IMG/VR virus record: IMGVR_UViG_3300021964_000435
Coordinates: 1 to 26,434 of that record
Direction: 5' to 3' (one strand)
Origin: a virus
DNA length: 26,434 nucleotides
This document shows positions 5,094 through 26,434 of this stretch, in pieces. A program made the position numbers and the translations under genes. How positions within the stretch are numbered: position 1 is the first letter of the stretch; the number at the start of each line of letters is the position of its first letter. The notes below the pieces were generated by a model. The model searched no databases. It was not told the DNA's origin and worked only from the letters and a program-made list of their open reading frames with translations.

Positions 5094-6920
5094 ATGGCAG
5101 GAAAAACAGCACAAATTAGAGAACTAATGGATAGAGACGGAATGGCTCGTCAGTTAGCTGGACTCTATAATAATTGGTGGATTCAAAGACGAGATAAAGA
5201 AGGTGAATGGAGAGAACTAAGGAATTATTTATTTGCAACTGATACAACTAAAACAACTAATTCTAAACTTCCTTGGAAGAATAAAACTACTCTGCCTAAG
5301 CTTACTCAGATACGAGACAACCTTCATGCTAACTATATGGATGCGTTGTTTCCAAATGATAATTGGATGAAGTGGGAAGGTCATAATCTAAAAGATGCTA
5401 CTGCTAAAAAACGTAAAGCTATTACAGCTTATCTACAGACTAAACTAAAAGAGTCTAACTTTAGAGAGACTGTTTCTGATTTAGTATATGACTACATTGA
5501 CTATGGAAACTGTTTTGGTGAAGTTACTTTTGTAGATGAAAGCCATACTGATCCTTATGATGGTTCAGAAGTAGTTACATATCGTGGTCCTAAGTTACAA
5601 AGAGTATCACCATTTGATATAGTGTTTAATCCTGTAGCTAGCTCATTTAAAGAGTCACCTAAGTTTACTCGTTATGTAAAAACAGTAGGTGAAATAATGA
5701 AAGAAGCTAAGACTAGACCTGACCTTAACTATGATGAAGATAAACTTAAGAAAGCTATTGAGTTTAGAAAGCAGATTTCATCTTTCCAAATGGAAGATAT
5801 TAACAAATCAGAAGGTTTTTTAGTAGATGGTTTTGGTTCTTTATATGAATACTATCAATCAGGTTTAGTAGAGATACTAGAATTTGAAGGTGATATTTAT
5901 GATGAAGTAAATGATGAACTACTAGAAAACAAAATCATTACTATTGTTGATCGTAGTTATGTAGTACGAAATATAGACAATCCTTCTTACTTAGGTAAAG
6001 ATACTAAGCATCATGTTGGTTGGAGATCTCGTCCTGATAACTTATATGGTATGGGTCCACTAGATAACTTAGTTGGATTACAATATCGTGTAGATCACTT
6101 AGAGAACTTAAAAGCAGATGCTTTAGATATGACTATACATCCACCTCTTAAAATTAAAGGTGATGTAGAACCATTCGAATGGCATCCTGAGTCAACAATT
6201 CATATTCCTGAAGATGGTGAAGTAGAAGCTATGCCTCCAAACGCAGCAGCTTTCCAAGTTAATAACGAAATAGGTACATTATTAGCTCTTATGGAAGAAA
6301 TGGCAGGAGCTCCTAAAGAAGCTATGGGCTTTAGAAGTCCTGGTGAAAAGACAGCTTTTGAAGTTCAACAGCTACAAACAGCAGCTTCTAGAATCTTCCA
6401 ACATAAGATTAATCAGTTTGAAGTAGAGTTCTTAGAACCTATTCTAAATATGATGTTAGAAATGGCTAGAAGAAACCTAGATGCAGCAGAAGTTGCTCGA
6501 ACAATGGATGATGATTTAGGTGTAGCAGACTTTATGTCTATTACTAAAGAAGATATAACAGCTCGTGGTAAGTTAAGACCTATTGGAGCTAGACACTATG
6601 CAGCTAGAGCACAGTTAATACAGAATATGTTAGGTTTATTTAATAGCCCTATGGGTCAGTTAATACAGCCTCATATTTCTGCTAAACGACTAGCTAAGAT
6701 GGTAGAAGAATACATGGGCTTTGAAGATTATGAGTTCATAAAAGACAATGCAGCCTTATTTGAACAAGGTGAGCAGGCACAAATTCAGCAACAAATACAG
6801 TCTTCTGTACAGGCACAGCAACAGCAGCCTGGTATGCAAGAACAAATGTTAGCTGAACAAGAGGCAGAACTAGCAGGTCAAGTTTCAGAGGATGGAGAAA
6901 TACCTCCTGAAATGCAGTAA
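5094..6920 (+). CDS. Portal (head-tail connector) protein, 608 aa
   Basis: This large soluble protein directly follows the terminase and precedes the scaffold and capsid genes, the canonical portal position. Recognisable features are the N-terminal WWIQRRDKEGEWRELRNYLFATDT, LHANYMDALFPNDNWMKWEG, DYIDYGNCFGEVTF, the RPDNLYGMGPLDNLVGLQYRVDHLENLKADA block around the middle, and MEEMAGAPKEAMGFRSPGEKTAFEVQQLQ, which is typical of podovirus portals. The C-terminal about 60 residues are Gln/Glu-rich and probably disordered (QIQQQIQSSVQAQQQQ). As a dodecamer it would form the channel at the unique vertex, bind terminase during packaging and the gp11-like adaptor afterwards. It appears complete. Confidence 0.92.
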   Translation: MAGKTAQIRELMDRDGMARQLAGLYNNWWIQRRDKEGEWRELRNYLFATDTTKTTNSKLPWKNKTTLPKLTQIRDNLHANYMDALFPNDNWMKWEGHNLKDATAKKRKAITAYLQTKLKESNFRETVSDLVYDYIDYGNCFGEVTFVDESHTDPYDGSEVVTYRGPKLQRVSPFDIVFNPVASSFKESPKFTRYVKTVGEIMKEAKTRPDLNYDEDKLKKAIEFRKQISSFQMEDINKSEGFLVDGFGSLYEYYQSGLVEILEFEGDIYDEVNDELLENKIITIVDRSYVVRNIDNPSYLGKDTKHHVGWRSRPDNLYGMGPLDNLVGLQYRVDHLENLKADALDMTIHPPLKIKGDVEPFEWHPESTIHIPEDGEVEAMPPNAAAFQVNNEIGTLLALMEEMAGAPKEAMGFRSPGEKTAFEVQQLQTAASRIFQHKINQFEVEFLEPILNMMLEMARRNLDAAEVARTMDDDLGVADFMSITKEDITARGKLRPIGARHYAARAQLIQNMLGLFNSPMGQLIQPHISAKRLAKMVEEYMGFEDYEFIKDNAALFEQGEQAQIQQQIQSSVQAQQQQPGMQEQMLAEQEAELAGQVSEDGEIPPEMQ

Positions 6921-6924
6921 TTGC

Positions 6925-6953
6925 TTGACTTTTATAATGACTTATGGTATAAT
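6925..6953 (+). promoter_or_regulatory. Sigma70-type promoter with extended -10, upstream of scaffold/capsid genes
   Basis: A -35 box TTGACT (6925-6930), a 17-nt spacer and a consensus -10 TATAAT (6948-6953) preceded by TGG give a near-ideal extended -10 host promoter in the portal/74-aa gene gap. The ATG of the next gene lies at 6960, 6 nt after the -10, so initiation at the usual distance would start at or next to the start codon. A second TATAAT (6933-6938) lies inside the spacer but has no -35 partner. The core TATGGTATAATA is identical to that of the - strand promoter at 25795-25823. Confidence 0.75.
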
Positions 6954-6959
6954 AATTGT

Positions 6960-7184
6960 ATGGATTTAAAATCAGATAAAGCTAAAAGCTTATCCAAGCA
7001 AGAAGCTTTTCAACTTATTCGAGAGTATATCAAAGATCAGATAGATTTGTCAAGACGTAAGCAGTTAGATGAAGATAATTTTACTTTACCTGCATGGTCT
7101 GAGCATCAAGCTTATCTAAATGGTTTTCAGAAATCTCTCTCAAAACTATATAATCTCATACCTGACCAAGGAGAAAATAAATGA
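6960..7184 (+). CDS. Small protein between portal and scaffold, 74 aa
   Basis: The start is the ATG at 6960, giving MDLKSDKAKSLSKQEAF. The frame is open back to a TTG at 6921, but that stretch is occupied by a strong promoter and would be a poor coding start. The protein is helical and charged (FQLIREYIKDQIDLSRRKQLDED) with a LPAWSEHQAYLNGFQKSLSKLYNLIPD C-terminus. It has no Shine-Dalgarno sequence, fitting a leaderless message from the promoter just upstream. Its stop overlaps the scaffold start (ATGA), and the scaffold ribosome site AAGGAG lies within its last codons. Function unknown; assembly-related by position. Confidence 0.65.
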   Translation: MDLKSDKAKSLSKQEAFQLIREYIKDQIDLSRRKQLDEDNFTLPAWSEHQAYLNGFQKSLSKLYNLIPDQGENK

Positions 7185-7900
7185 GTGAAGAACAAAACGC
7201 AACACAAGAACAACAAGTTTCAACAGAGCAGACTACCCAGGAAGCTCAAAATTTAGATAGCCCTTCAAAGGCTTTTGAAATTCCGACAGAAGCTCAAGAG
7301 TTTGTAGGAGAGGGTAAAAAGTACAAGAGTGCAGAAGATGCTCTTAGATCAGTTCCTCATGCACAACAGCATATTCAGACTTTAGAATCTGAACTAGCTG
7401 AAGTAAAAGAAGAACTAGCTAAGAGAAGAACGACTCAAGAACTTATAGATGAATTAAAGTCTGATCGTCAGGAAGAGCCGACAGCTCAACAACCTGAAGT
7501 GGATACAGATAGCTTAGAACAGTTAGTCCAAGCTACTTTAGATAGAAGAGAACAACAACGTTCTGCTAAACAAAATGCTGATTCAGTTGCTAGTAAGTTT
7601 ACTGATGCTTTTGGTGATGCTGCAGAGCAAAGTTATAATCACCTAGCTAAAGAAAATGGAATGACTATTCAACAATTAAATAATTTGGCTGCTTCTTCGC
7701 CAAGTGCTGTACTAAGACTTGCAGGATTAGATGGTAAACCTGCTACTAATGTAGCTAAAACATCTAGCTCTGTAAATACTGAAGCTCTAAAAGGTACACC
7801 TAATGCAGAGTTATCTGCTAAAGTTCCTCAAGGTGCTTCTACTAAAGACTTAGTTAAGGCTTGGAGAGCTGCAGGTGAAAAAGTAAAATCTCAACTATAA
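7181..7900 (+). CDS. Capsid assembly scaffolding protein, 239 aa
   Basis: This is an acidic, Gln/Glu-rich protein of low complexity at its N-terminus (EEQNATQEQQVSTEQTTQEAQN). It has a coiled coil at about 62-92 (QQHIQTLESELAEVKEELAKRR) and a C-terminal Lys/Arg-containing helix (ASTKDLVKAWRAAGEKVKSQL) like the capsid-binding helix of scaffolds. It lies immediately before the major capsid gene, in the order seen in T7-like phages (gp9 before gp10). It should direct procapsid shell assembly and leave before or during packaging. Its ribosome site AAGGAG is strong. The assignment is from composition, architecture and synteny. Confidence 0.85.
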   Translation: MSEEQNATQEQQVSTEQTTQEAQNLDSPSKAFEIPTEAQEFVGEGKKYKSAEDALRSVPHAQQHIQTLESELAEVKEELAKRRTTQELIDELKSDRQEEPTAQQPEVDTDSLEQLVQATLDRREQQRSAKQNADSVASKFTDAFGDAAEQSYNHLAKENGMTIQQLNNLAASSPSAVLRLAGLDGKPATNVAKTSSSVNTEALKGTPNAELSAKVPQGASTKDLVKAWRAAGEKVKSQL

Positions 7901-7911
7901 AGGAGACTTAA

Positions 7912-8892
7912 ATGTCACAATTAACAGGAAATACAACTGCGTTTATCGAATCGCAACAGTATTCTCAGTTTATCCTTGAGAACTTACATGACTATCTGTT
8001 ACCTGAAGGTATGTGGAGAGATGTTTCTGACTTTGGTTCAGGCACAACTCTTAACATTAAAACAGTTGGTACTGTAACAATTCAAGATGCAGCTGAGGAC
8101 ACACCTCTTAACTACTCACCTATCGACACAGGTAACTTAACACTTTCTATTACTGACTATGTTGGTGATGCTTGGAAAGTGTCTGATGATCTTCGTGAAG
8201 ATGGTTCTCAAGTTGATTCATTAATGGCTATGCGTGCTATGGAATCTACTCGTGCTCTTGGTGAAAACCACGAATCACGTTTCTTAGCAGTTGCTAACGC
8301 AGCTCACACAGGTGCTGATCTTAACTTAGTTAATGCTAGACCTCATAGATGGGTTGGTTCTGCAGCTTCTAACGTTAGAACTATCACATTAGAAGACTTT
8401 ATCGCTATGAAATTAGCTTTTGATAAAGCTAACGTTCCTGCAGGTGGTCGTATTGCTATCGTTGACCCAGTTGTTGAAGCTACATTAAACAGCTTACAAA
8501 ACTTAGTTAACGTTTCTAACAACCCAATGTTCGAAGGTATCGTTACAGAAGGTTTTGCTCGTGATCATAAATTCGTTAAGAATATCTTTGGTTTCGATGT
8601 ATACACTTCTAACTTCTTACCATCACTAACTGCTACAGAGGCTATCGATGCTTCAGGCTACGGCTTAACATCTGAAACAGCTCAGGTTGGTGACAAAGCT
8701 AACGTATTCATGTGTGTTGCTGATGATTCATGCAAACCAGTTATGCACGCTTGGAGACGAGCTCCGAAAACAGAAGGTTGGAGAGATCAAGAAGAAAGAG
8801 CTGATAAGTTCCAAGTAACTTCTAGATTCGGTTTTGGTGCTCAACGTGTTGACACATTGGGTGTAATTTTAACTTCAGCGACAGCTTACTAA
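7912..8892 (+). CDS. Major capsid protein, 326 aa
   Basis: This is an HK97-fold-type coat protein by context, following the scaffold gene with a strong AAGGAG ribosome site. Typical features are the N-terminal helix SQQYSQFILENLHDYLLPEGMWRDVSDFG, DTPLNYSPIDTGNLTLSITDYVGDAWKVSDDLRED, EDFIAMKLAFDKANVPAGGRIAIVDP and the conserved NIFGFDVYTSNFLP block of podovirus coats. Codon choice differs from its neighbours: Arg is frequently CGT, and Asn, Ile and Val codons often end in C or T (AAC, ATC, GTT), consistent with selection for very high expression. It should form the icosahedral shell. No truncation is seen. Confidence 0.92.
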   Translation: MSQLTGNTTAFIESQQYSQFILENLHDYLLPEGMWRDVSDFGSGTTLNIKTVGTVTIQDAAEDTPLNYSPIDTGNLTLSITDYVGDAWKVSDDLREDGSQVDSLMAMRAMESTRALGENHESRFLAVANAAHTGADLNLVNARPHRWVGSAASNVRTITLEDFIAMKLAFDKANVPAGGRIAIVDPVVEATLNSLQNLVNVSNNPMFEGIVTEGFARDHKFVKNIFGFDVYTSNFLPSLTATEAIDASGYGLTSETAQVGDKANVFMCVADDSCKPVMHAWRRAPKTEGWRDQEERADKFQVTSRFGFGAQRVDTLGVILTSATAY

Positions 8893-9360: not shown

Positions 9361-9385
9361 AGGTTGGGGTCTTCGGACCCCTCCT
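9361..9385 (+). terminator. UUCG-loop hairpin after the capsid/decoration genes
   Basis: A perfect GGGGTC-TTCG-GACCCC hairpin (9366-9381) lies three bases past an extra AGG/CCT pairing (9361-9363 with 9383-9385). UUCG tetraloops are exceptionally stable and common in terminators and stabilisers. The following bases are AT-rich (ATTATAATTA) but not a clean T run, so partial termination or 3'-end protection of capsid mRNA is the likeliest role. Confidence 0.7.
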
Positions 9386-22786: not shown

Positions 22787-22832
22787 TCTCCTCTAAAGCT
22801 ATTGTAGTAGAGGAGAGGCAAACCTCTACTAC
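22787..22832 (-). promoter_or_regulatory. Alternative hairpins around the ribosome site of the 70-aa gene
   Basis: On the - strand, a perfect 10-bp stem (GTAGTAGAGG / CCTCTACTAC, at 22823-22832 and 22804-22813, 9-nt loop) lies between the SLOG gene and the 70-aa gene. The segment TCTCCTCT (22809-22816), made of part of the loop and the 3' arm, can instead pair over 8 bp with AGAGGAGA (22787-22794), which contains the ribosome site. The two structures exclude each other. A switch function is inferred. Confidence 0.45.
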
Positions 22833-22840
22833 TTTAGCAC

Positions 22841-22866
22841 GTCCCAGTGGCTAGCTAGGGACTTTT
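22841..22866 (+). terminator. Possible rho-independent terminator of the + strand virion operon
   Basis: GTCCC (22841-22845) can pair with GGGAC (22858-22862) around a 12-nt loop containing the palindrome CTAGCTAG, and TTTT follows immediately. It lies after the larger 10-bp hairpin at 22804-22832 at the point where the two operons converge, where termination is expected. The stem is short, so this is tentative. Confidence 0.4.
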
Positions 22867-23225
22867 ACTACCATCACTGGTAGATTTCTTTTTTGGGCAT
22901 ACTTAATACCATACTCTGTACCCTTACTACGAGTATCCCAAATGGCTAGGACTCTATCAGCATTGTCAATCATCTGTTTAGTCCTAACAAAAAAGTATTT
23001 TGAATTAAACTCTGTAGTAGTATCTATCAAGTGATATGGTAAAAATTCTACTACATCTATTCCTCTAGCCTCAGCGTATTTCTTGGATAATGGATCGACA
23101 CCTTTGGCACTCCCTAGGAGGAAGGTGAGAGTGCCTGTGCCGTGTTCCTTAATAAAGCGATCAATTATAGGAAAGATGTCTTCAGCCTTATCAATGGAAC
23201 GTGAACCTATGATACAAACTTTCAT
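22851..23225 (-). CDS. SLOG-superfamily (DUF2493/YspA-like) nucleotide-binding protein, 124 aa
   Basis: A Rossmann-like protein starting MKVCIIGSRSI, with FLLGSAKGVDPLSKKYAEARGIDVVEFLP and later NADRVLAIWDTRSKGTEYGIKYAQKRNLPVMVV. GSR at the N-terminus, G-A-GVD-L..A and AD-V-A-WD--S-GT--I--A are the hallmark motifs of the DUF2493/SLOG family, related to DprA and LOG proteins, which bind nucleotide-derived ligands. Length is typical. Its ATG overlaps the stop of the 46-aa gene (ATGA), placing it in the same operon as the ribonucleotide reductase, so a role in nucleotide sensing or processing during infection is plausible but inferred. Confidence 0.8.
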   Translation of the reverse strand: MKVCIIGSRSIDKAEDIFPIIDRFIKEHGTGTLTFLLGSAKGVDPLSKKYAEARGIDVVEFLPYHLIDTTTEFNSKYFFVRTKQMIDNADRVLAIWDTRSKGTEYGIKYAQKRNLPVMVVKVPS

Positions 23226-23362
23226 TTATACCACGCTATTTGTATTCTCAAGATTAATAAGTCTATTAGAACATAACCAATCTCTTGATCATCTACTTCT
23301 GCTTCAGTAAGTTCAAAACCTAACTGAACTCCACATATAGGTTGTATTGTAGTAATCATCAT
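23222..23362 (-). CDS. Small protein between RNR and SLOG genes, 46 aa
   Basis: This short gene fills the gap between the reductase and the SLOG protein, with ATGA overlaps at both ends. It may start at 23362 or at the second ATG at 23359. The product is MMITTIQPICGVQLGFELTE, then AEVDDQEIGYVLIDLLILRI and QIAWYK. The pattern GFE, then a hydrophobic LIDLLILRIQIAW end, is familiar from small proteins of marine podoviruses. The C-terminal 15-17 residues are hydrophobic but interrupted by Asp and Arg, suggesting a buried strand or membrane-peripheral segment. Function unknown. Confidence 0.65.
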   Translation of the reverse strand: MMITTIQPICGVQLGFELTEAEVDDQEIGYVLIDLLILRIQIAWYK

Positions 23363-25236
23363 ATTTCGCAAGTGCCTCCAGTACACGCTAAGGTTTGTGC
23401 TCCTTCAGTATTATCTGTTTCTTCTACAAACTCTGTCCAGTCAATAACTTTAGGAGTCTTAGCTAGAAGTTCTTCATACTGTTCTTTACTACAATCCTCG
23501 TAAGGAGCTTGTTGATATGTATGATCACTGTGTGGTAAGAAGGATACACCACTAATCTCATCAAAGTGTTTCCATACCCATGCACCTACTTCAACCCATT
23601 CATCATCTTTAACAGAGATAGTAACTGAAGGTTTATGTTCACACCAATGACGTTGATAGATAATCCAGTTCTCTAGTTGCTCAATAGCAGTCATACCATC
23701 TCTAAGTATAGCACCTTTAGGAGCTTTCATAGGGAAAGTAAAGACTGCTGTAGAGTCAGGTCTAAAGGCTTCATCTTCAACTTCTACACCTTTATTTTTT
23801 AAGAACGTATAGATTGGATCTTTCTTGTCCATTCTGATTCTTCTATAGTAATAGTCATTGTGTCGTGTATGAATACCACTAGCACTGTCCACAAGCTGAG
23901 AAACAGTACCGCTAGGCTTAACACAAGTAATTGATGCAGACACAGGTATATCCAATTTCTTGGCGATCTTTTCATTTGTTTGTCTTGCAACATCTCTTAA
24001 CCTTTCTAACATTTTAGGATCAGGATTAGATGTAATCTTAGCATCCATGATACCTGTCATTGACACACCTAATAGTCTTTCTTCTGAAGTATTCTTCTTC
24101 CATTCAGCAGATAAGAAGTTAAAGTTTGTTAAAGTAGACTGGATAGTTCCCAAAATTGTAGCAAGTTTAACTTTTCTTGCAAGGCTCTCTTCGGTGTCTC
24201 CGTTCCGAACAACAACCTCTGTAAGGTTACAGAATTGCTTATCACGGAGTATAATTTCGCTGCATGGGTTTGTTCCGTAAGGGTGATCCTTTGTACGTCT
24301 TCCCCATTTCGCAGCTTGTTCCTGAGCAGCAATCCTATTAAATATTCCTCGTTCACCAGATTTTGACTTAACCAGACTGAGCCATTCTTCCATGAAAGTC
24401 TCACTATCAGGTTTTTCGGTATAGGCGACTGAGTTGTTTGCGAGTCCTCTGTGTGGGTGATCATTGTACCATGCTCCCATTTTAGCTTCACGCATTCTGC
24501 GATCAGTTAAGTTAGATAAAGAGATTAGAGCAGATCGTCTTACACCACCAACCACTACTATCTCACCAATCATACACATAATATCATGTACTTCTATTGA
24601 GTTAAGCTGACGACCCCTAGCTTCTTTGAAAGTCTCAACACAAAAATCAAAAAGACGTTTAAGAGGATCAGGACCACTTGCACGTCCACCAAAGGTCTTC
24701 AGCCTAGCACCTGCAGGTCTTACCTTATTAAAATCAAACGTTGGAATATCACCTTCATATAAAGAAGAAATTAGCTTTTTAAGGGCTTTAGCCCAACCTA
24801 GTTTAGAATCTTCTACTACAATAATATCATCACAGTAGTCTAAGTCAGCAGGAATCTCAGGTAGTTTGTTAATATCTTGACGTTCACAAGAGAAACCAAC
24901 TCCTGTTCCATTCATTAAAATATACAGAGCTTCACTAAATGCTCGCTTATTGTTGACTGCCAAATAAGAACAGTTATAAGCAGATATGTTATCTCTTTCA
25001 CAGGCTTCTCCTGCAGTCATAAGCAGTCTCATAGACGGCATGACTTCTAAGTTAAGAACAGCTTCTCTTACTTCTTTAAGTTCCTTTTTAAGGTCAGGTG
25101 TTTTTGTTTCTAGGTAGGTTACTAAACGATCAACTGTTTCATCCCAAGTCTCTCGTCTATTCTTTTCAGGTATGAATCGTGCATATCTAGACAATGCAAT
25201 CACATCTTGGTATACACTAGGTAAAGTCTTACTCAT
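23359..25236 (-). CDS. Adenosylcobalamin-dependent ribonucleotide reductase (class II, monomeric), 625 aa
   Basis: This enzyme reduces ribonucleotides to deoxyribonucleotides with a thiyl radical generated from vitamin B12 coenzyme. The active-site set is visible: Cys89 in AYNCSYLAV, NPCSE with Asn323, Cys325 (radical site) and Glu327, Cys336 in FCNLTEV, and the C-terminal redox pair Cys618/Cys623 in ACTGGTCEI. It resembles the monomeric ribonucleoside-triphosphate reductase type of Lactobacillus leichmannii (739 aa) but is shorter. The CVKPSGTVSQLVDSASGIHTRH phosphate-binding block is intact. It overlaps both neighbours by a few bases. It probably supplies dNTPs for phage replication when the host provides cobalamin. 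Class II is supported by the motif set and absence of a small radical subunit gene. Confidence 0.92.
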   Translation of the reverse strand: MSKTLPSVYQDVIALSRYARFIPEKNRRETWDETVDRLVTYLETKTPDLKKELKEVREAVLNLEVMPSMRLLMTAGEACERDNISAYNCSYLAVNNKRAFSEALYILMNGTGVGFSCERQDINKLPEIPADLDYCDDIIVVEDSKLGWAKALKKLISSLYEGDIPTFDFNKVRPAGARLKTFGGRASGPDPLKRLFDFCVETFKEARGRQLNSIEVHDIMCMIGEIVVVGGVRRSALISLSNLTDRRMREAKMGAWYNDHPHRGLANNSVAYTEKPDSETFMEEWLSLVKSKSGERGIFNRIAAQEQAAKWGRRTKDHPYGTNPCSEIILRDKQFCNLTEVVVRNGDTEESLARKVKLATILGTIQSTLTNFNFLSAEWKKNTSEERLLGVSMTGIMDAKITSNPDPKMLERLRDVARQTNEKIAKKLDIPVSASITCVKPSGTVSQLVDSASGIHTRHNDYYYRRIRMDKKDPIYTFLKNKGVEVEDEAFRPDSTAVFTFPMKAPKGAILRDGMTAIEQLENWIIYQRHWCEHKPSVTISVKDDEWVEVGAWVWKHFDEISGVSFLPHSDHTYQQAPYEDCSKEQYEELLAKTPKVIDWTEFVEETDNTEGAQTLACTGGTCEI

Positions 25237-25417: not shown

Positions 25418-25517
25418 CCTTCTTCTCTTTGTCCTTCTTGAAAATTCTATCAAAGTTTTCTTCGAACTTCTTGTTATTTGCTCTTGAGTTAAACTTAGTC
25501 TTTTCAAACTGTGTCAT
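25395..25517 (-). CDS. Very small basic protein, 40 aa
   Basis: An ATG at 25517 preceded by GAGGAG with about 7-nt spacing gives a strong ribosome site. The product is MTQFEKTKFNSRANNKKFEE followed by NFDRIFKKDKEKKDDKPNTP. It is highly charged and Lys rich. The 5' end overlaps the 94-aa gene by 14 nt and the 3' end overlaps the 62-aa gene by 23 nt, each in a different frame. The strong ribosome site and compact packing argue for expression; function is unknown. Confidence 0.6.
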   Translation of the reverse strand: MTQFEKTKFNSRANNKKFEENFDRIFKKDKEKKDDKPNTP

Positions 25518-25788
25518 CGGAGTTCTCCTCATAAAGTAAAGCCATAGCTAAATAGTTAATAGCACCAAGAATCTCACGTTTATACCAAAGATAGTTAGTA
25601 TCTTCTTTGTTCTTTACTGCTTCCATGATCTTTTTTTGAGCCTGTCCTGTTAAAAAACCAACTCCATGAGTCTTAGTAATACTGACCCAAGGTTGTTGTA
25701 AAAAGTCTTGACCATTACCATGACGTTCATTACCTTTGCCTTGGTTAACTTGATCTAATGCTTCATCAAATATATTTTCTAATCTCAT
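25504..25788 (-). CDS. Conserved phage protein, 94 aa, function unknown
   Basis: The product contains NERHGNGQDFLQQPWVSITKTHGVGFLTGQAQKKIMEA and KREILGAINYLAMALLYEE. The ERHG--..F--QP...G-GFL-GQA-KK--EA...E-LGAINYLA-A pattern is a conserved family in phages of marine and other bacteria, often near nucleotide metabolism genes, without a proven role. The C-terminal helix is amphipathic with no true membrane span. It is the first gene after the - strand promoter at 25795-25823. It has no Shine-Dalgarno sequence, and its ATG lies 6 nt after the -10 box. It precedes the reductase operon. Confidence 0.75.
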   Translation of the reverse strand: MRLENIFDEALDQVNQGKGNERHGNGQDFLQQPWVSITKTHGVGFLTGQAQKKIMEAVKNKEDTNYLWYKREILGAINYLAMALLYEENSDDTV

Positions 25789-25794
25789 AACTAT

Positions 25795-25823
25795 ATTATA
25801 CCATATTATTGTTAAAAATACAA
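25795..25823 (-). promoter_or_regulatory. Sigma70-type promoter with extended -10 driving the nucleotide-metabolism operon
   Basis: Read on the - strand: -35 TTGTAT (25818-25823), a 17-nt spacer, TGG and -10 TATAAT (25795-25800), then 6 nt to the ATG at 25788. It lies between the exonuclease stop and the 94-aa gene. It shares the 12-nt core TATGGTATAATA and the same -10-to-ATG distance with the + strand promoter at 6925-6953. This strongly suggests a shared promoter design and a leaderless message for the first gene. Confidence 0.7.
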
Positions 25824-26434
25824 CTAAACTGCCTTAAGAAGTACATCTTTTTTATGCTCTTTTTCAGCTTTATTACTCTTGCTCCACTTACCACAGCTTT
25901 GACAATGAAAACGTTGATATTTATTAGCACCTACAACACTAAACCCTCTACGCTGAAGGTTAGTAGAGTCACAAGCAGGACATACATGATCATGAGAATG
26001 AGCATTAAAGTTAAACTGTGTTACGATCCAACCTTGTAATCTCTTGTATACATCCTCTGTAAGGTTAACGTCTTGAATGTTATACTTCTTCATAACCTTC
26101 CATGCTTTAGGATTCTTTGCCATACATTCAATCCAAAGAGGCATACCTTCATGAGATACTTTCATACCAATACCTAACTCCTGTGCAATATGATCTAACT
26201 TATTACTAGCAAAGTTAAACTTAGATCTAACTGTTTGTATTAGGTCAATGTCTTTATAAGGACTTGGTGGTGCTAATCTATGTAACAAGAACTCACGCTG
26301 TAATGTAGGCAGGTCAAACTTCTTACCATTATACGTTACAATGGCATCTGCTTCGTCAATAAGCTTGTGAATCTTTTTGATCATAGTTCTAGGACTATCG
26401 TCAAGAATACTAGCGAAGTGAACTTGTTTGTGAC
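25824..26434 (-). CDS. DnaQ-like 3'-5' exonuclease with C-terminal zinc ribbon, 5' end outside window
   Basis: The open frame continues past the ATG at 26384 to the window edge (HFASILDDSPRT before MIKK), so the true start and the first acidic motif (DxE) are missing. Visible are the Exo II-like YNGKKFDLPTL (Asn and Asp) and Exo III-like YNIQDVNLTEDVY of the DEDDy RNase H-like superfamily. A C-terminal four-cysteine zinc ribbon (CPAC and CQSC) is at residues 135-164 counted from the ATG at 26384. It probably trims DNA or RNA 3' ends in phage DNA metabolism. It is followed by a promoter for the downstream operon. Substrate specificity is not evident. Confidence 0.8.
   Translation of the reverse strand, partial: HKQVHFASILDDSPRTMIKKIHKLIDEADAIVTYNGKKFDLPTLQREFLLHRLAPPSPYKDIDLIQTVRSKFNFASNKLDHIAQELGIGMKVSHEGMPLWIECMAKNPKAWKVMKKYNIQDVNLTEDVYKRLQGWIVTQFNFNAHSHDHVCPACDSTNLQRRGFSVVGANKYQRFHCQSCGKWSKSNKAEKEHKKDVLLKAV

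Follow-up and report, generated by a model that had tools for sequence, protein, structure and literature searches.

Lambda PRM is a sigma-70 promoter that places an AUG at the 5′ end of its RNA. T7-like phages carry internal promoters before their capsid genes, have a polymerase of their own, and make leadered mRNAs that bear a Shine-Dalgarno (SD) sequence. The lambda cI mRNA is leaderless and is translated without an SD sequence (PMC9031893). It has already been remarked that phage transcripts are often leaderless (PMC5312081), thus a leaderless layout in a phage is of a known kind. The preferred start of RNA polymerase lies 7 bp after the -10 element (PMC5730371), so that a gap of 6 nt between the -10 and an ATG makes the A of that ATG the preferred RNA start.

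We analyzed a 26.4-kb fragment of a viral contig (26,434 nucleotides, 65% AT), hereafter the window. Its nearest isolates are MEP401 and MEP402, phages of OM43 (Methylophilales) that belong to the family Zobellviridae, with identities of 79-80% for the ribonucleotide reductase and 81% for the terminase. The + strand of the window carries virion genes, and the - strand carries the ribonucleotide reductase and replication genes. Two promoters of the same design precede ATG 6960 on the + strand (site A) and ATG 25788 on the - strand (site B). These sites and their neighbours are as follows:

5094..6920, + strand: portal gene, the upstream neighbour of site A
6925..6930, + strand: site A -35, TTGACT, 5/6 sigma-70 matches
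6943..6953, + strand: site A extended -10, TATGG followed by TATAAT (6948-6953), 17-nt spacer
6954..6959, + strand: 6 nt from the site A -10 to the ATG, whose A (6960) is the predicted RNA start
6960..7184, + strand: first gene after site A, 74 aa, function unknown (phrog_8956), with the portal on one side and the scaffold on the other
7181..7900, + strand: scaffold-position gene, in ATGA overlap with the stop of the 74-aa gene and in synteny with the scaffold/capsid genes of MEP401/402
7912-8892, + strand: major capsid gene, next after the scaffold-position gene
25824..26432, - strand: 3′-5′ exonuclease (DNA polymerase exonuclease subunit; phrog_403), upstream of site B, its stop abutting the promoter
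25818..25823, - strand: site B -35, TTGTAT, weak, 3/6 sigma-70 matches
25817-25801, - strand: site B 17-nt spacer, read from the letters
25795..25805, - strand: site B extended -10, TATGG followed by TATAAT (25800-25795)
25789..25794, - strand: 6 nt from the site B -10 to the ATG (25788-25786), whose A (25788) is the predicted RNA start
25504..25788, - strand: first gene after site B, 94 aa, function unknown (phrog_13898, E 3e-22)
23359..25236, - strand: B12-dependent (class II) ribonucleotide reductase, downstream of the 94-aa gene and probably a beneficiary of site B
22851-23225, - strand: YspA/SLOG-like nucleotide-binding protein (PF10686, E 5e-9), after the ribonucleotide reductase

Near the convergence of the two operons, a perfect 10-bp inverted repeat (GTAGTAGAGG/CCTCTACTAC, at 22804-22832) is flanked by two minus-strand genes. 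On the virion side, a GC-rich perfect hairpin, GGGGTCTTCGGACCCC, occupies 9366-9381 in the gap 3′ of the gene after the capsid gene; it has no clear T-run and is a possible RNA processing or attenuation site.

We postulate, with a probability of roughly 0.75, that sites A and B are internal booster promoters for the host sigma-70 RNA polymerase and that their first genes are leaderless. Both would be near-consensus or extended -10 promoters, located in short gaps within long unidirectional operons. RNA synthesis would begin with the A of the ATG, 7 bp beyond the -10, and the first gene of each sub-operon would be made from a leaderless mRNA on which 70S ribosomes start at the 5′-terminal AUG. 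As internal boosters, site A would raise the scaffold/capsid block and site B the ribonucleotide-reductase block. The coincidence of a 6-nt gap, which gives the preferred RNA start, with first genes that have no good SD is what favours leaderless mRNA from internal booster promoters. Since these first genes lack a ribosome site, each is expected to be translated well only from the RNA of its own promoter. We hold this more firmly for site A than for site B.

The sequence-only reading had described the - strand site as TTGTAT, 17 nt, TATAAT, 6 nt and an ATG, which the letters from 25823 to 25786 bear out one by one. The 12-nt core that it regarded as shared, TATGGTATAATA, occurs exactly twice in the window (+ 6943-6954 and - 25805-25794), and the distance of 6 nt to the ATG is likewise the same at the + strand twin (6925-6959, ATG 6960). 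Among 400 dinucleotide-preserving shuffles of the window, this 12-mer had a mean of 0.01 copies; two copies never occurred together (0/400), nor did an ATG ever follow the -10 of TATGGTATAATA at a distance of 6 nt (0/400). Scanning the window by itself for consensus promoters told us little, with 56 promoters found vs 48 expected in one scan and 30 vs 46 in another. Site B is a weaker copy that the consensus scan missed because TTGTAT matches the sigma-70 -35 at only 3/6 positions, and with this poor -35 it relies on the extended -10. The stretch TATGGTATAA (6944-6952; 25804-25796) contains ATG GTA TAA, a start-valine-stop minigene that would be present in read-through RNA only and is probably incidental to the extended -10.

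Neither first gene of the window has a good SD, as had been noted from the letters: both score -2.8 kcal/mol, the 5th and 6th weakest among the 27 genes of the window, and the weak pairing of both falls within the promoter, ahead of the position at which the RNA is predicted to start. The site-B genes of MEP401 and MEP402 are the weakest of 66 and the 3rd weakest of 68 in SD pairing. Meanwhile, the site-A genes of MEP401/402 are outside the 14 weakest scores; their weak pairing would fall inside the promoter and outside the predicted RNA.

Conservation at site A was assessed in 67 distinct regions from public viral contigs, each lying ahead of the gene that follows the portal gene; these sequences are related and not independent. 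The promoter was present in all 67 and adjacent to the gene in 61. Each of the 61 adjacent promoters matched sigma-70 at 10/12 positions or more and had the TGN motif and a spacer of precisely 17 nt, and their gap from the -10 to the ATG was 6 nt in 55, 7 nt in four, 8 nt in one and 12 nt in one. Between the portal stop and the -35 the spacing varies over a range of ~30 nt, and still the gap from the -10 to the ATG is 6 nt in 50/56. Information content per base was 1.86 bits for the -35, 1.88 for the extended element and 1.96 for the -10, compared with 1.15 for the six-base gap and 0.40 for upstream DNA; the gap is thus variable in sequence and hardly so in length. The ATG itself was present in all distinct regions, with no in-frame ATG upstream in 66/67. 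Directly after it the genes differ by synonymous changes, including an AGT/TCT serine switch, and because variation is synonymous from the first codons on, this ATG is the likely start of the gene.

The remaining 6/67 regions keep the promoter 73-85 nt upstream. In clade L172-L181 the kept promoter is followed by an AU-rich leader of 73-85 nt that has no clear SD or stable fold, so that leaderlessness is not essential at site A. This clade is a natural leadered counterpart to the leaderless layout. Promoter loss in this clade was considered and rejected, the promoter having been found 73-85 nt upstream, as was a structured leader, since two leaders fold worse than shuffles (z ~ +2).

For site B the set comprised 20 distinct regions, with one unrelated row that had a 1-nt gap left out. 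A strong promoter was found in all relatives, with TTGACA or TTGACT as the -35 (5-6/6 matches); TATAAT or TATACT is kept in 20/20 and TG in part of them only. MEP401/402 have TTGACT-17-TATAAT-6-ATG here despite a different next gene, which encodes a DUF3310 protein. The gap from the -10 to the ATG was 2 nt in one region, 3 nt in eight, 5 nt in two, 6 nt in eight and 7 nt in one, and because it drifts in this way, leaderlessness is less certain at site B. Where the gap is 2-3 nt, the expected site of RNA initiation would lie beyond the ATG, and the same leaderless start becomes impossible unless the polymerase starts unusually early. Seven of the nine regions with such a gap have GAGG, AAGG or AGGG ~8-10 nt before the ATG, ahead of the -10, which could serve read-through RNA as an SD.

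The sequence-only reading had suggested scanning relatives for the same design before the first genes of operons. In the complete genomes of MEP401 and MEP402 the design recurs at the same two places, before genes that lead sub-operons: TTGACT-17-TATAAT-6-ATG stands at both places in both isolates, 2 per genome vs ~0.01 expected. The genes so led are gp21 and gp43 in MEP401 and gp22 and gp45 in MEP402. With the class defined as TATAAT, a spacer of 17 nt and no more than one mismatch in the -35 (~0.6 sites per genome expected by chance), the same four sites were found in each isolate. Two of them have the ATG at 6 nt, another precedes a gene with an SD leader, and the fourth, which heads the virion strand, has a leader of ~240 nt. 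Hence, the proposal that start codons are placed at the transcription start agrees with the expected start at both window sites and in relatives, but describes only 2/4 sites of the class. The same layout occurs in two other records before a 177-aa relative of MEP402 gp69, which makes this gene a third candidate for leaderless expression.

All four sites of MEP402 read TTGACTTTT-N8-TRTGNTATAAT, whereas in MEP401 three have TTGACTTTT and one has TTGACTTTC. The T-run after the -35, which sigma-70 does not require, is in the four MEP402 sites and has 1.1-1.6 bits in the site-A family. The conserved portion of the class is the sigma-70 set, namely TTGACW, 17 nt, TGN and TATAAT. The base after TG varies (TATGG, TGTGC, TATGA), and therefore the 12-base identity in the window marks no special operator. 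We searched six related records and found no match to T7-type RNA polymerase (PF00940; the T7 control was positive, E 1e-109) or to sigma-70 region 4 (PF04545). The idea of a phage-specific class thus stands as far as a consensus shared across the genus is concerned, but this consensus is of sigma-70 type and, as neither protein was found, gives no evidence for a phage polymerase. Recognition of the sites by the host holoenzyme would agree with both absences, which lend it indirect support. A literature search found no promoters or leaderless genes described for MEP401/402 or Zobellviridae.

Between the virion-strand promoter and gp69, these genomes contain an unannotated 23-aa ORF with an SD, MWTKPEAVEMRFGFEVTMYVLNK, located at 43118-43047 on the minus strand of MEP402 (L030), from 41970 on the minus strand of MEP401 (L031), and also in L469 and L752. 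Both Pfam PF08042 and TIGR02107 identify it as the PqqA precursor peptide. The MEP paper makes no mention of this ORF; phage PqqA was reported earlier from Lake Baikal (PMC7678222).

In a wider test, unrelated viral contigs were scanned for TTGACAAA-N12-TGN-TATAAT with an ATG at a set distance; fractions were compared among the matches listed only. Among these, an ORF of 40 aa or longer began at the ATG in 50/74 sites with a 6-nt gap, in 6/88 with a 4-nt gap and in 31/67 with a 9-nt gap. Within this listing, a 4-nt gap does no better than chance in unrelated phages, unlike a 6-nt gap, and because 31/67 of the listed 9-nt sites also open ORFs, 6 nt is not the sole workable spacing. Other strong sites in the contigs listed for 4 and 9 nt had gaps of 4, 5, 6, 7 and 8 nt in 1, 1, 6, 2 and 0 cases, and the same contigs displayed a broad leadered peak at ~25-35 nt. 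These small numbers, taken among the matches listed, suggest a small, sharp excess of start codons exactly 6 nt after the -10, and an ATG at the RNA start as a less common arrangement that many phages have. In many unrelated IMG/VR contigs (loci L299-L378 and L419-L498), long ORFs were also seen whose ATG follows a strong sigma-70 site at exactly 6 nt. Two further scans of the collection used a 16-nt spacer and are a sign of a widespread layout only.

How the first gene is translated is the point at which another explanation deserves weighing. The promoters could be real and serve only the genes further down, with the first gene translated from read-through RNA through weak or coupled initiation. 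The short gaps in 9/20 site-B regions, seven of them with a possible SD, speak for this, as do the SD-less leaders of 73-85 nt in the one site-A clade. We nevertheless consider it unlikely, since the gap at site A holds at 6 nt in 55/61 while flanking distances drift, the window offers read-through RNA no good SD, and in unrelated phages ORFs open no more often than by chance after a 4-nt gap, unlike after a 6-nt gap (among the matches listed).

The identity of the polymerase and the reality of the sites raise two further alternatives. That a phage or phage-modified polymerase co-regulates virion and nucleotide genes through a phage-specific class would explain why the four MEP402 sites share one motif, including a T-run that sigma-70 does not need and that is also informative in the site-A family. 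Yet each invariant base is a sigma-70 determinant, six related records are without T7-type polymerase or sigma-70 region 4, and unrelated phages display the same layout, which makes this explanation highly improbable. A chance resemblance might be expected in a window of 65% AT, where loose promoter matches are about as frequent as in shuffles; but the pair arose in 0/400 shuffles, site A is conserved in 67 distinct regions and two complete isolates, which refutes chance for it, and site B has a syntenic promoter in relatives. Its overall probability is close to nil.

Host sigma-70 boosters with leaderless first genes would have several implications. Since the 6-nt spacing is exact, RNA 5′ ends become predictable to the base, which provides a predicted, sequence-level map of RNA starts in OM43 Zobellviridae. 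The prediction also includes leaderless genes that are conserved as a set in lytic marine phages, while leaderless expression is mostly discussed for repressors such as lambda cI. Moreover, start finders that expect an SD can misplace such genes. A tentative extension, which we hold to be possible rather than likely, is that in many lytic phages sigma-70 promoters serve as a "private start", with their +1 on the A of the start codon. If true, translation would occur only from the RNA of a gene's own internal promoter, resulting in promoter-locked expression of chosen genes within long operons.

Compared with described systems, the two sites combine features of several. They resemble T7-like phages in that extra promoters within a late operon would raise scaffold/capsid output, a role that we infer here; unlike in T7, no own polymerase or leadered SD-bearing mRNA is seen at these sites. 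The order portal, small gene, scaffold, capsid is shared with Cobavirinae of the Zobellviridae (Roseobacter phage CRP-4 and Lentibacter phage ICBM2), but those genomes have no such promoter there, and their small gene either follows a purine-rich leader or overlaps with the stop of the portal gene. The TANNNT-type leaderless system is similar in that a -10 box directly upstream of an ORF gives a leaderless mRNA. That system covers about one third of host genes and its -35 only enhances, whereas here we find few phage sites, a -35 at 17-nt spacing and other phage genes that are SD-led. Finally, sites A and B are like lambda PRM-cI in pairing a sigma-70 promoter with an AUG at the RNA 5′ end, predicted in our case. 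The lambda promoter serves a lysogeny repressor, whereas the internal promoters described here, at which no operators were recognised, belong to lytic virion and nucleotide genes.
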